Below, in pieces: positions 11,483-25,228 of a stretch of 38,197 nt of DNA. The stretch covers positions 164,570-202,766 of the forward strand of contig JAKUNJ010000003.1 in assembly GCA_022451965.1 (NCBI GenBank). Direction: 5' to 3'. The translations under genes and the position numbers were made by a program. This stretch comes from Dehalococcoidia bacterium (GTDB lineage Bacteria > Chloroflexota > Dehalococcoidia > Lucifugimonadales > Lucifugimonadaceae). The first letter of the stretch is position 1. Every line of letters begins with the position of its first letter. The notes under the pieces are model-generated. The model was not told the origin of the DNA and did not search any database. It worked only from the letters and a program-made list of their open reading frames with translations.

Positions 11483-12292
11483 CTATTTTGTAAACTTAAA
11501 AATTCTACTACCTAATCTATCAGTTACGTAAAATATACCATTTGTATAATGAATATTAGATGGTTTCCAACTTTCCATATGGTAAATTTCTATCATCTCT
11601 CCTTCAGAATTTAGTACACCAATAGCGCCTATTCCTGGTAAGGTTTGATAAATATTACCATCATCATCAACTGTTATACCATCTGGATTACCAGGCTCAG
11701 CAAATCTTCTAAACATTCTAGGTTCTGGCACATCTTCAGATTCATGATTTTCTAAAACTACTAGTCTATTAGCCCTAGTTTCTGATATAAAAACATTTTT
11801 AGAGCTTATTGTGATACCGCTTGGAAATGCTAAATCTGAAATAAATAATTCAACTTTGTTTTTGATTAGCTTATAAACAGGGCTTATACAAGGATTTGGG
11901 TATGGATTTCTAAGTGGATCCGTGAATATAACTTCATCATTTTCATTTATATCTAAATCTGATGGACCATTTAATTCAATATCATCGTAAGAGTCACATA
12001 ACTGTGTAATACTTCCATTTCCTAGACTAACTCTCAATATAGCTTTTCTTGCTGCATCAGCTACTATAAGTGAGTTAGATTTTTTAGAAAAAGCTATTCC
12101 GAGGGGCCTTCCTTTAGTATTTGCATGTGAGTTTATATTAGATTTATTAATCTTAAATATATTTCCTGAGGAAGCCGAAGTAACATATACTTTACCTTTA
12201 TCATCGACAGTTATTCCTTCAGGATGAGGAATTGAGGAAGTAATTTCTTCAAGATTATTAGGTAAATTTGGTTGTAGTTTATTAAAGATTAT
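11483..12292 (-). CDS. SMP-30/NHL-type six-bladed beta-propeller, probable ATA start (or broken 5' end)
   Basis: The first canonical start is TTG at 12037 (184 residues), but the coding frame continues upstream to a TAA at 12295-12293. The whole 269-residue frame shows six repeats of the pattern P-x-GI-(V/A)-x-DD-x-G-x-(I/V)-Y: HPEGITVDDKGKVYVT, RPLGIAFS, GPSDLDINENDEVIF, FPSGITISSKNVFIS, NPDGITVDDDGNIYQ and KPSNIHYTNGIFYVT. The first two lie wholly upstream of the TTG, so a complete propeller needs the longer frame. It probably starts at ATA 12292, five bases after AAAAGGA. The family includes gluconolactonases and strictosidine-synthase-like hydrolases; no catalytic set is clear. It starts 10 bases after the mscS stop, so the two form an operon. 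An in-frame ATG at 12310 is blocked by TAA at codon 6, so a nonsense mutation is the main alternative. Confidence 0.72.
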   Translation of the reverse strand: MIFNKLQPNLPNNLEEITSSIPHPEGITVDDKGKVYVTSASSGNIFKINKSNINSHANTKGRPLGIAFSKKSNSLIVADAARKAILRVSLGNGSITQLCDSYDDIELNGPSDLDINENDEVIFTDPLRNPYPNPCISPVYKLIKNKVELFISDLAFPSGITISSKNVFISETRANRLVVLENHESEDVPEPRMFRRFAEPGNPDGITVDDDGNIYQTLPGIGAIGVLNSEGEMIEIYHMESWKPSNIHYTNGIFYVTDRLGSRIFKFTK

Positions 12293-20737: not shown

Positions 20738-22801
20738 ATGTCTGAAATTTTATATGGTGTTATTGCAGCAGTAGTTTCTTTGCTCACAGCAGGAATTTTA
20801 TTTTTGAGAGTTCAAAGAATTAATGTTGTTAATGAGGATGTTAAGAATATAGGAGATCTTATCAAGGAAGGTGCAATGGCTTTCTTGAAAAGAGAATATA
20901 CTGTTCTATCTATGTTTGTTATAGCAGTATTTGTAATATTAGTTGTGTTTATAGATTTAGATATATTTGGAATAATTGGTACAAGCCAAGGTAATATAAA
21001 TATGTCGATTTCTTACCTAATTGGTGCTGCTGGGTCTGCTTTGGCAGGATACTTTGGAATGGCTGCTGCTGTAAGAGGAAACTCTAGAACTACGGAAGCT
21101 TCCCAAAAAAGCCTAAATAATGGATTAAGAGTTGCCTTTAGTACAGGTGCAGTTCCTGGATTTGCAGTTGTTGGTATAGGTCTTCTTGGAGTATCAGTTT
21201 TATATTTAGTTTTTGAAAGTGCTACAGTAATAGCTGGTTTTGGTTTTGGAGCTAGCTCTGTTGGCTTATTTGCCAGAGTGGCTGGGGGTGTATATACAAA
21301 AGCTGCTGATGTTGGAGCTGATCTTGTTGGAAAAGTAGAAGCCGGCCTTCCTGAGGATGATCCTAGAAATCCAGCTACAATCGCTGATAATGTAGGTGAT
21401 ATGGTTGGAGATACTGCTGGTATGAGTGCTGATCTTTTTGAATCCTATGCAGGATCTCTTATTGCTACAATCGCTCTTGCGGTCGCTGCTACAAAAAGCA
21501 TAAGTAGTGATTTGGTGATCCTTCCAATTATAGTTTCAAGTATTGGAGTAATTGCATCAATAATAGGAACATTCCTGGTTAGAACAAAAGAAGGTGCTTC
21601 AATGAATAATCTTCTATGGAGTTTCAGAATTGGAATTTTTGGAGCAACTATATTAGGTTTAATTGGTGCTGGAGTTTATATAAGCGCTAAAGGAATGGAT
21701 TTTAATCTTCTATGGGTGATATTGTTCGGTAATCTACTTGGAATAATTGTAGGGACAGCAACAGAATATTTTACTTCATATGAATATAAGCCTGTTAAAT
21801 GGATGGCATCACAATCAGAAACAGGTGCCGCCTCTGTAATCATTGCTGGTATTGCTGTTGGATTATATTCAACCGTTATACCTGCCATAACAATTGCTGC
21901 AGGAATATTAATTTCTTTCACTCTTGCAGGTGGTACAGTAGACGATCCTATAATGGGACTTTATGGTATTGCATTAGCTTCAGTAGGAATGCTTAGCACA
22001 CTTGCTATAACATTGAGTACTGATAGTTTTGGACCTGTGAGTGATAATGCTGGTGGTATTGCAGAACAAGCTGGTTTAGACCCTCAAGTAAGGGAAAGAA
22101 CCGATGCTTTAGATAGTTTAGGTAACACTACTGCTGCTACTGGAAAAGGTATATCAGTTACTAGTGCTGTCCTAACTTCACTTGCTCTTCTAGCTACATA
22201 TGCAACAGTTGCTGGTATTGATTCATTGAATTTACTAAATCCAAAAATTTTAGTTGGAGCTATTATAGGTGGTTTATTGCCATTTATTTTTGCTGGATTA
22301 ACTATGGCTGCAGTAGGTAGAGCTGCTGGAGCAATGATAGAAGAAGTTAGACGTCAATTTAGAGAAATCAAAGGACTTAAAGAAGGTAAAAAAGGTGTAA
22401 AACCTGATGTAGCAAAGGCTGTTGAAATTTCAACCAATGGTGCATTAAAAGAAATGATAGTTCCGGGAACATTAGCAATACTTGCTCCAATCGCTGTAGG
22501 AATTATTCCATTCCTTGGGCCTGAAGCTTTAGGAAGTATGCTTGCAGGATCTATTATTTCTGGATTTTTACTTGCTATTTTTCTAAATAACTTTGGTGGT
22601 GCTGCTGACAACGCAAAAAAATATATCGAGTTAGGTAACCATGGTGGTAAAGGATCTGATGCTCATGAAGCAGGTGTCATAGGAGACACTGTCGGAGATC
22701 CAACTAAAGATACTAGTGGGCCAGCTCTTAACATTTTGTTAAAGCTAATGGCGATGGTATCAATAGTTTTTGGTCCTCTATTTTTAGGGATAGGTGGATA
22801 G
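20738..22801 (+). CDS. hppA: Membrane-bound ion-translocating pyrophosphatase
   Basis: 687 residues with about 16 hydrophobic helices. The pyrophosphate-binding motif DVGADLVGKVE is at about 191-201, followed by EDDPRNPATIADNVGD and DLFESYAGS. The second acidic cluster near the C-terminus includes NNFGGAADNAKKYIE and GDTVGDPTKDTSGP. GNTTAATGKG at 462-471 has the alanine pattern of potassium-dependent enzymes rather than the lysine of potassium-independent ones. It couples pyrophosphate hydrolysis to export of protons or sodium; which ion cannot be decided from the motifs I checked. The strong ribosome binding site suggests high expression. A 12-bp inverted repeat lies 24 bases after the stop. 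Confidence 0.96.
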   Translation: MSEILYGVIAAVVSLLTAGILFLRVQRINVVNEDVKNIGDLIKEGAMAFLKREYTVLSMFVIAVFVILVVFIDLDIFGIIGTSQGNINMSISYLIGAAGSALAGYFGMAAAVRGNSRTTEASQKSLNNGLRVAFSTGAVPGFAVVGIGLLGVSVLYLVFESATVIAGFGFGASSVGLFARVAGGVYTKAADVGADLVGKVEAGLPEDDPRNPATIADNVGDMVGDTAGMSADLFESYAGSLIATIALAVAATKSISSDLVILPIIVSSIGVIASIIGTFLVRTKEGASMNNLLWSFRIGIFGATILGLIGAGVYISAKGMDFNLLWVILFGNLLGIIVGTATEYFTSYEYKPVKWMASQSETGAASVIIAGIAVGLYSTVIPAITIAAGILISFTLAGGTVDDPIMGLYGIALASVGMLSTLAITLSTDSFGPVSDNAGGIAEQAGLDPQVRERTDALDSLGNTTAATGKGISVTSAVLTSLALLATYATVAGIDSLNLLNPKILVGAIIGGLLPFIFAGLTMAAVGRAAGAMIEEVRRQFREIKGLKEGKKGVKPDVAKAVEISTNGALKEMIVPGTLAILAPIAVGIIPFLGPEALGSMLAGSIISGFLLAIFLNNFGGAADNAKKYIELGNHGGKGSDAHEAGVIGDTVGDPTKDTSGPALNILLKLMAMVSIVFGPLFLGIGG

Positions 22802-22825
22802 ATTATTTTCATAGAATATTGGATA

Positions 22826-22862
22826 AATCTCTTCAGATAATATAGTATTTTCTGAAGAGATT
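22826..22862 (+). other. Perfect 12-bp inverted repeat between hppA and the deacylase gene
   Basis: AATCTCTTCAGA (22826-22837) and TCTGAAGAGATT (22851-22862) are exact reverse complements around a 13-base A/T-rich loop. There is no T-run after the stem, so it is not a classical Rho-independent terminator. It may protect the hppA mRNA end, partly stop transcription, or affect the deacylase ribosome binding site that begins 16 bases later. Confidence 0.6.
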
Positions 22863-22878
22863 AAATCTATATATCTTT

Positions 22879-22893
22879 GGAGAGAATAATATA
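22879..22893 (+). promoter_or_regulatory. Ribosome binding site and probable ATA start of the deacylase gene
   Basis: GGAGAG (22879-22884) is followed by six bases and then ATA at 22891-22893. The codons after it read LDILIKNGSV, which aligns with the normal N-terminus of this amidohydrolase family. No ATG, GTG or TTG occurs in frame until 23161. Confidence 0.7.
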
Positions 22894-24483
22894 CTAGACA
22901 TCTTAATAAAAAACGGAAGTGTATTTTCAGGAAATAACAATGAACCTGAATCTAATAATATTGGAATAAAAAATTCAAAAATAGATTTTATTGGAAAAGA
23001 GTCCCCAGAATCTAAAAAAGTTATTGATGCAAAAGATTACATTGTTACACCTGGTTTCATAGATATTCACACACATAGTGATATCTCATTTTTAGTTGAT
23101 CCTGAGGCCGATAGTAAGCTGACTCAAGGAGTAACTTTTGAATTTCTTGGAAACTGTGGAATGAGTTTTTGTGCTCCATTGAATAGTGCTTCAAAGCAAA
23201 CATTGTCAGATAGATTATCTAAATATGATTCTGACGTTAAGATTGATTGGAATGATTTTACTGATTGGTTAAACAAAATAGAAAGAAATATTCCATCAAT
23301 TAATCTCGCAGCTCAATTAGGCCATGGAGTTCTTAGATCTTATGTAATGGGAATGAAAGCTGTCTCCGCAACACCAGAAGATATAGAAGCTATGAGGAAT
23401 ATTGTTCGCTCTTCGATAGATCAAGGAGTTTTAGGATTTTCAACAGGTCTATGGTATGCTCCGGGATCATATTCTCATACAGAAGAAATTGTCGAAATAA
23501 CTAAAGTAGTTGCAGAGCACGATTTGTTATATTCAAGCCATATTAGGTCTGAGAGCGATGATGCTTCTGGGCTTTTCCCTGCTCATGCAGAAGCTATAGA
23601 AATTGGAAGAAGAACAGGAGCTAAAATTCAAATTAGTCATGTTAAGAGTGTTGGCCCTCAGTTTTGGGGTAGAGGCAACGAACTTTTAGAAGGAATGTAT
23701 AAAGCAAGAGAAGAAGGGATAGATGTAGCAGGAGACCAATATCCTTATGAATGGTCTAGTACTCCTACTAGTGGATGTATGTTTCCTAGATGGAGCCTTG
23801 AGGGAGGAAGAGAAAAGACTCTTGAGAGGTTAAAGGATAAAAATATTAGAGAGGCTATAAAATCTGAAACTATAAATTATATAAATAGATTTCACGGTTC
23901 AGCAGGTTGTATTTTAGCTGAATTTTCAAATGATAAAAAACTTGAAGGACTTAATTTATCTGAAATTTCTGAAGAATTTTCATGTTCACCTGAAGAAGCT
24001 GCTATGAGACTTTATGAAATTTCTGAAGGTTCATTCGTACTTCATTCTATGGAAGAACAAGACGTAGATACGATAGGAATGTCTGACATAATTGCAGTTG
24101 CTTCAGACGGTAATTCACTTAGAAACATAGGACCTCTTAGTAATGGAAAGCCACATCCAAGAAGTTATGGAACAAACACAAGATTTATAGAAGATATGGT
24201 AGTAAATAAAAAGAAAGTTTCAATTTCAAATGCTATTTATCGAATGACTAGCCTTCCAGCAAGCAGAATAGGATTAAAAAATAGAGGTGAAATAAAAAAA
24301 GGATATTTTGCAGATATTAATATTTTCAAACCCGAAGAGTTAAAAGAAAAGGCTACTTATGTAGATCCACATCAATATTCTACTGGTATGAAATGGGTTT
24401 TAGTAAACGGAAAAATTGCACTAAAAGATGGGAAAAAAATTGAAGGCAGATTTGGAAAAGTTGTCAGATCAAAAGAGGGATAA
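22891..24483 (+). CDS. N-acyl-D-amino-acid deacylase (D-aminoacylase-like amidohydrolase), ATA start
   Basis: 530 residues if started at ATA 22891. The first canonical start, ATG 23161, lies 90 codons later and would remove the metal site. The upstream frame encodes LDILIKNGSVFSGN, then PGFIDIHTHSD with His60 and His62, and LGNCG with the bridging Cys89. The rest of the site is His217 (SSHIRSE), His250 (ISHVKS) and Asp406 (ASDGNS), matching D-aminoacylases in order and spacing. The enzyme would release D-amino acids from N-acyl forms, although some members act on related amides. The creatininase-family gene starts 4 bases after its stop, so they are an operon. The ATA start rests on the ribosome binding site and on these catalytic residues. 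Confidence 0.9.
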   Translation: MLDILIKNGSVFSGNNNEPESNNIGIKNSKIDFIGKESPESKKVIDAKDYIVTPGFIDIHTHSDISFLVDPEADSKLTQGVTFEFLGNCGMSFCAPLNSASKQTLSDRLSKYDSDVKIDWNDFTDWLNKIERNIPSINLAAQLGHGVLRSYVMGMKAVSATPEDIEAMRNIVRSSIDQGVLGFSTGLWYAPGSYSHTEEIVEITKVVAEHDLLYSSHIRSESDDASGLFPAHAEAIEIGRRTGAKIQISHVKSVGPQFWGRGNELLEGMYKAREEGIDVAGDQYPYEWSSTPTSGCMFPRWSLEGGREKTLERLKDKNIREAIKSETINYINRFHGSAGCILAEFSNDKKLEGLNLSEISEEFSCSPEEAAMRLYEISEGSFVLHSMEEQDVDTIGMSDIIAVASDGNSLRNIGPLSNGKPHPRSYGTNTRFIEDMVVNKKKVSISNAIYRMTSLPASRIGLKNRGEIKKGYFADINIFKPEELKEKATYVDPHQYSTGMKWVLVNGKIALKDGKKIEGRFGKVVRSKEG

Positions 24484-24487
24484 TATT

Positions 24488-25228
24488 ATGAAAAACTTAG
24501 AATTTTTTAACAGAAACCAAGCAAGAGATTTTATTAATAAAAATAAACCAATGGCTATTATTCCCACAGGCTCTGTAGAGCAACACTTAAATCATTTATT
24601 TATAGGTATGGATATAAATTCAGCGACAGGAATAGCACAAGATCTTGCTGAAAAATTCTCTGATGATGTTATATTTTATAGACCTCTAAATGCTGGAATA
24701 GCAGAGCATCATATGGCATTTCCTGGAACTATGACTCTAAGAGTTAACACATTTATAGGAGTTCTTACAGATATAGTTGAAAGCTTGATAAGAGGTGGTG
24801 TAAAAAAGATTCTTTTTATAAATGGTCATGGAGGGAATGTAGAACCAATGGCAACTGCGATGAGAAATATATCTTTACAAATGAAAGGAATTCATGAAGG
24901 AATTGATACTACAGAAGTAAGAACTCATTATGATTATGAAGAACTTCTTAATAAAGATTCAGAAATTGATATTAGATATACAAGTTATTGGGAAACTCAT
25001 GATGAAGATTTCATAAAAAATATAATTGATGACGACGTATGGCCTGGTCATGCTGGTGAATATGAAACCTCAGTTGCATTGTATATGTTTCCAGATTTAG
25101 TTGATAAAGATGCAATTAAAAATGATCCCTTAGGAACATCTACAAATGCTTCAAAAGAAAAGGGCGAACAAATTTATATTGACATAATCAATCAATATTC
25201 CAAAATAATTAAAGAAATGTTGCAATAA
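24488..25228 (+). CDS. Creatininase-family amidohydrolase
   Basis: 246 residues from the ATG at 24488, preceded by AGAGGGA; an ATG at 24428 inside the upstream gene is unlikely. Conserved metal ligands appear in IIPTGSVEQHLNHL (Glu31, His33), GMDINSATG (Asp42), NGHGGN (His114) and GHAGEYETS (Glu191). True creatininases have HYE where this has HGG, so it more likely belongs to the non-creatininase branch, which includes MftE-like peptidases and formamide or amide hydrolases. Its pairing with an N-acyl-D-amino-acid deacylase suggests a two-step breakdown of an amide-containing compound; the substrate is unknown. It converges with mutS, with 33 bases between stops. Confidence 0.88.
   Translation: MKNLEFFNRNQARDFINKNKPMAIIPTGSVEQHLNHLFIGMDINSATGIAQDLAEKFSDDVIFYRPLNAGIAEHHMAFPGTMTLRVNTFIGVLTDIVESLIRGGVKKILFINGHGGNVEPMATAMRNISLQMKGIHEGIDTTEVRTHYDYEELLNKDSEIDIRYTSYWETHDEDFIKNIIDDDVWPGHAGEYETSVALYMFPDLVDKDAIKNDPLGTSTNASKEKGEQIYIDIINQYSKIIKEMLQ

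Follow-up and report, generated by a model that had tools for sequence, protein, structure and literature searches.

A deacylase gene with a probable AUA start codon in an uncultured Chloroflexota lineage

A deacylase gene in the window, that is, the whole stretch of 38,197 nucleotides of DNA analysed here, is very probably functional and complete and translated from a near-cognate AUA codon at position 22891. This codon would be positioned by a Shine-Dalgarno (SD) sequence and read by the ordinary initiator tRNA, whose CAU anticodon would mismatch it at the third position. It belongs to the AUH starts (AUA, AUC or AUU), and this reading draws on comparison with related genomes. The window's genome (G000), that of an ocean bacterium, has a size of 1.25 Mb and a G+C content of 30%, and its close relatives are MAGs of SAR202-cluster Chloroflexota.

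The deacylase frame and its start region

The frame 22891-24483 (forward strand, 1.59 kb) encodes an N-acyl-D-amino-acid-deacylase-like amidohydrolase of 530 aa. The protein matches Amidohydro_3 (PF07969) with 83.7 bits against a curated cut-off of 29.7, and its nearest solved structure by sequence is the N-acyl-D-glutamate deacylase 3GIP (E 1.7e-65). The motifs HxH, GNCG, SHIR, SHxK and SDG align residue by residue to 3GIP and 9G5M, an alignment that covers the bridging Cys and the later metal-ligand His, His and Asp. In the NCBIfam search, the best model (NF006560) reached 193.5 bits, which is below its cut-off of 340, and thus no substrate is given to the enzyme. Membership in the N-acyl-D-amino-acid deacylase subfamily is predicted from the PF07969 match and the metal ligands, with the NCBIfam score falling short of its cut-off.

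The metal site is complete only when AUA 22891 serves as the start. The sequence-only reading had placed the HxH and the GNCG cysteine within the 90 codons before ATG 23161, and the alignment to 3GIP and 9G5M bears this out, with HTH at residues 60-62 and the bridging cysteine at residue 89. As the first in-frame canonical codon (ATG, codon 91) lies downstream of both, a protein begun there would be without them, and it may soundly be inferred that such a protein would be dead. Gene callers restricted to ATG, GTG and TTG would thus deliver a catalytically incomplete deacylase of 440 aa with its metal-binding site cut off.

The same reading had described a frame devoid of ATG, GTG and TTG ahead of 23161, and this holds from the in-frame TAG at 22843-22845 onwards. 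One in-frame CTG (22852) occurs between this stop and the AUA. Moreover, the coordinates, the SD sequence GGAGAG and its six-base distance from the start proved right when the sequence was read again. The spacer is AATAAT (22885-22890), and the ATA is followed by CTA GAC ATC TTA ATA AAA AAC GGA (LDILIKNG). In the N-terminal alignment, the AUA stands at the initiator-methionine position of about 20 homologues, in agreement with the earlier choice of this codon as the start. The SD sequence is good, not exceptional, with 22% of the sampled genes having one at least as strong. A codon-usage scan of 385 ORFs from 430 kb of the window's genome ranked the deacylase ORF second in coding potential upstream of the first canonical start, which is more than chance would give. 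In another ORF (L143:4805-5377), which contains a short internal repeat, strong coding potential is found 75 codons upstream of the first canonical codon. The features of the window are collected in Table 1.

Table 1. Positions of the features in and around the deacylase gene, and of the second gene with an AUH start, in the window
Feature	Position	Strand	Basis or remark
SMP-30/gluconolactonase-like gene (PF08450), second AUH-start gene in the window	11483..12289	-	start ATC 12289-12287 or ATA 12292-12290
hppA, membrane H+-pyrophosphatase (PF03030), upstream gene	20738..22801	+	domain match
Remnant 3' tail of MBL-fold gene	22826..22889	+	TAA 22887-22889 ends 1 nt before AUA; comparison with G003/G006/G007, where the MBL-fold gene is intact
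Perfect 12-bp hairpin between hppA and SD	22826..22862	+	predicted fold
In-frame stop TAG upstream of AUA	22843..22845	+	frame reading
Shine-Dalgarno GGAGAG	22879..22884	+	GGAG kept in all six AUH species, 8-9 nt upstream of start
Predicted AUA initiation codon	22891..22893	+	aligned to the homologues' initiator position
HTH codons (residues 60-62, metal-ligand HxH)	23068..23076	+	alignment to 3GIP/9G5M
Cys89 codon in GNCG (bridging metal-ligand cysteine position)	23155..23157	+	alignment to 3GIP/9G5M
First in-frame ATG/GTG/TTG (ATG, codon 91)	23161..23163	+	frame scan
Creatininase family gene (PF02633), downstream gene	24488..25228	+	domain match

Start codons and gene order in related species

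The aligned orthologues carry ATA at the initiator position in the window's genome and two sister species (G001, G004), ATC in G006 and G007, and ATT in G003. An AUH codon is thus kept at the homologous methionine position in six species (ATA in three, ATC in two and ATT in one). The same position is occupied by TTG in G031 and by ATG in G002, G005 and almost every relative further away. The first canonical codon is located 90 codons downstream of the AUH in five of the six species, and G003 has a TTG at codon +4. An in-frame TAA located three codons upstream of the ATC rules out any other sensible start in G006 and G007. Furthermore, dN/dS over codons 2-90 is 0-0.14, similar to the rest of the gene (Nei-Gojobori counts for AUH species including the three with ATA; one pair with saturated dS), which implies that the 90 codons are translated and under purifying selection.

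These comparisons bear directly on the idea of a sequencing or assembly error, or of a change from ATG to ATA confined to a single lineage, where it would have killed the gene. Only a single base lies between ATA and ATG, but the ATA recurs in both sister species, ATC or ATT takes its place in three more, and the genomes come from separate MAG projects (OSU, TMED, NAT, EAC and H12BWF for the AUH assemblies with named records). An AUH common to species from several projects makes a shared base-call error not credible. With the low dN/dS upstream of ATG 23161 also against it, this explanation retains hardly any probability. To the G at 22893 in the reads, which the sequence-only reading had named as refuting its start, the comparison gives a partial answer: the other five AUH species have the same or another non-G third base.

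The surroundings of the gene differ among the six species. An MBL-fold gene (PF12706) ends just upstream of the AUH in G003, G006 and G007, where the junction of stop, spacer and start reads TGA-T-ATT in G003 and TAA-AT-ATC in G006 and G007. In G000, G001 and G004, this gene is gone save for its 3' tail, and hppA lies directly upstream of the deacylase. Two genes separate hppA and the deacylase in G006 and G007 (L043:8067-10000), one of them ADP-ribosylglycohydrolase-like by eye and the other MBL-fold; the MBL-fold gene alone does so in G003, and the interval 22801-22891 of the window's species holds neither, save the tail. The leader as a whole has a folding z of -4.1, and the SD sequence is weakly or partly paired in the predicted fold. 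The 12-bp leader hairpin was not seen by eye in G006 and G007.

The close spacing of the MBL-fold stop, 1-2 nt before the AUH in G003, G006 and G007, would suit a programmed frameshift by which ribosomes enter the deacylase frame from the preceding gene or from a short ORF ahead of it. Such a shift would, however, need to be +1 in G003 but -1 in G006 and G007, as the spacing is one base apart, and the MBL-fold gene is deleted in the window's species. Additionally, the only nearby out-of-frame canonical codon (TTG at -14 in G000, G001 and G004) is unconserved in frame and reach, and relatives start independently with ATG or TTG. A frameshift or fusion with the upstream gene was rejected as inconsistent between species. 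The missed frameshift that the sequence-only reading had named as a threat to its start is thus excluded by the species-dependent spacing of 1 or 2 nt and by the lack of a conserved out-of-frame start, and the probability of this mechanism is negligible.

Use of another near-cognate codon for initiation is very unlikely, whether the CTG at 22852, which is in frame, or one of two internal AUH codons (codons 4 and 6). The CTG is found in frame 13 codons upstream in the three nearest species (G000, G001 and G004), but the TAA ahead of the ATC in G006 and G007 is followed by no CTG. The internal AUH codons are separated from the SD sequence by some 17 nt or more, and their use would drop the first strand conserved in homologues.

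AUH starts in the genome and the lineage

Canonical starts are found in 29 of the 31 window genes and are conserved in every case for which an orthologue was available; the two AUH genes are the deacylase and the SMP-30-like gene. About a third of the window's genome was sampled, as stretches. Among 184 orthologue pairs from the sampled stretches of G000 and G002, with starts assigned by alignment, 170 are canonical in both genomes, and the deacylase, the SMP-30-like gene and recF stand out as clear AUH cases in G000. The number of AUH genes is a lower bound, since any whose true start is soon followed by a canonical codon would escape notice. In a sister genus (g5), recF is the sole exception among 29 pairs. 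The control genus (g6) is too close for a useful comparison, and the 20 exceptions flagged there are uninterpretable.

At least five AUH-start gene families were found, which might point to AUA or AUH as a general start codon of the window's genome through an altered IF3, initiator tRNA or code. Against this stand the 170 pairs with canonical starts on both sides and the codon tallies, in which SD-anchored AUH codons remain at the background rate without genome-wide excess; genome-wide AUH usage was rejected on these tallies. An altered initiator tRNA was likewise rejected, as the tRNA has the anticodon CAU and a standard GGG/CCC stem, and IF3 is present. An altered anti-SD was also rejected, the anti-SD of the 16S rRNA being intact (CCTCCTTT). 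A general AUH start is therefore highly improbable, and the AUH start is a rare, gene-specific feature. The earlier claim of a non-canonical start stands, although conservation applies to AUH as a class and not to AUA alone, and the feature is no genome-wide rule.

Two further ideas did not hold. By eye, only the AUH genes of the window seem to have strong SD sequences; in the genome sample, those of the five-AUH-gene set are mildly stronger, which is weakly significant (P 0.03), and the rule was rejected. An MFS gene (L144 16135) was rejected as an AUA start due to a conserved CTG/TTG four codons further upstream.

The other AUH genes vary in their reach. The SMP-30-like gene begins with AUH (ATC, ATA or ATT) in all seven genus members holding it, and its first canonical codon in G000 is a TTG 85 codons in. 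For infC, AUA is the start in the window's genus, and almost every other SAR202 genome read has AUA, AUC or AUU (L089-L092, L063-L088). A Na/Ca exchanger-like gene (L153:860 = G000:C4:100860; L259-L267) begins with ATA in six species, while three others have ATG at that position, and in the ATA species the first canonical codon is 24-65 codons downstream. The start of recF (L151:14859-16013, reverse strand = G000:C4:14859-16013; L269-L298) is AUC, AUU or AUA in all 30 family genomes read, G+C-rich ones included, and never AUG. GGAG or a similar motif usually lies just upstream of recF, and an in-frame stop often precedes the start by 1-4 codons. The recF AUH is likely to be actively maintained, and recF is probably a better example than the deacylase of a weak start that is maintained.

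It is conceivable, though less likely than not, that selection retains the deacylase AUH itself as a weak start under IF3 control, of the infC type, and that this codon is not merely tolerated. The third base drifts among A, C and T without G in the six deacylase species and in all 30 recF genes, and Streptomyces sigR and Escherichia coli infC offer precedents (PMC5472188). However, the deacylase sample is too small and holds few independent third-base changes, the absence of G is not improbable in an AT-rich genome, and ATA and ATG interchange in the exchanger gene.

Two genes of G000, L147:7338-8246 (miaA-like, judged by its N-terminus) and L156:371-1567 (MFS-like), begin with ATG or TTG, but their G002 orthologues have no canonical codon close to the conserved N-terminus; AUH starts are possible in both orthologues. 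The G002 contigs C6 and C14 carry identical MFS and equally scoring tRNA matches with matching spacing, which suggests a redundant contig or a duplication in that assembly.

Initiation at the AUA codon and comparison with known systems

Translation of the deacylase from AUA 22891 would proceed by ordinary means. The GGAG of the SD sequence would set the 30S subunit in place, and the initiator tRNA (anticodon CAU) would pair with the first two bases of the AUH. Owing to the third-base mismatch, initiation would presumably be weak, at about a tenth of that from AUG as in the Staphylococcus aureus cases, and sensitive to IF3, and the protein would begin with fMet. In S. aureus, the AUH starts of ccpN, cvfC1 and citZ work with an SD sequence at roughly 10% of AUG in poor medium (PMC13009471). 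Repression of non-canonical starts by IF3 is established for infC and sigR (PMC5472188), and in vitro, weak pairing at the third position, that of AUU with the anticodon CAU included, is disfavoured by IF3, EF-G and RRF (PMC10158994). By analogy, we infer that IF3 may repress the deacylase start as well. Within the lineage, the AUA or other AUH starts of infC in nearly all SAR202 genomes read and the ATA/ATG interchange in the Na/Ca exchanger lend support to initiation at the AUA.

The gene order suggests an evolutionary route via the MBL-fold gene. An ancestral AUG or UUG, as in G002/G005 and G031, may have turned into AUH while the deacylase sat behind this gene, whose stop 1-2 nt upstream would hand terminating ribosomes to the AUH for reinitiation. 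The MBL-fold gene would later have been deleted save its tail in the window's species, so that the AUA and its SD sequence now stand alone behind hppA.

The deacylase start is readable from comparative data alone, as the third base turns over between species and the start stays non-canonical. The AUH of recF in 30 of 30 related genomes suggests that weak AUH starts are annotated too rarely in uncultured lineages and that a comparison of this kind can uncover them systematically. A small ancient AUH set in SAR202 (infC and recF family-wide; the SMP-30-like gene, deacylase and Na/Ca exchanger in the genus) might respond together to IF3 levels; this is unlikely, but if true, the joint response would tie DNA repair and scavenging enzymes to translational capacity.

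To our knowledge, very few AUH starts have been documented in bacteria, infC aside. The class of weak AUH starts is already known from E. coli infC and S. aureus ccpN, and the genes and lineage described here are new; a search of open-licence PMC papers found none that deals with start codons in SAR202 or with a non-canonical start in recF. With regard to the enzyme, the N-terminal strand, HxH, GNCG and later His, His and Asp of the D-aminoacylase and N-acyl-D-glutamate deacylase (1M7J, 3GIP) are aligned with the deacylase here, which is distant from them by sequence and of predicted function, and most of its relatives have an ordinary start codon. The AUU or AUA start of infC, the gene of IF3, is likewise AUH, SD-guided and conserved, and the infC of the window's genome itself starts with AUA; E. 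coli infC is autoregulated by IF3, whereas the deacylase has no known link to translation. Streptomyces sigR (GTC) differs in its codon and in that repression by IF3 was demonstrated there and is presumed here, but it shares with the deacylase a conserved non-canonical start that is easily mis-annotated, with low-level expression in sigR (PMC5472188). The starts of S. aureus ccpN (AUA), cvfC1 (AUU) and citZ (AUA) were mapped by ribosome profiling and reporters, whereas that of the deacylase is derived by comparison in uncultured Chloroflexota; as in the deacylase, they combine an AUH codon with an SD sequence, and those of ccpN and cvfC1 are conserved among species (PMC13009471).
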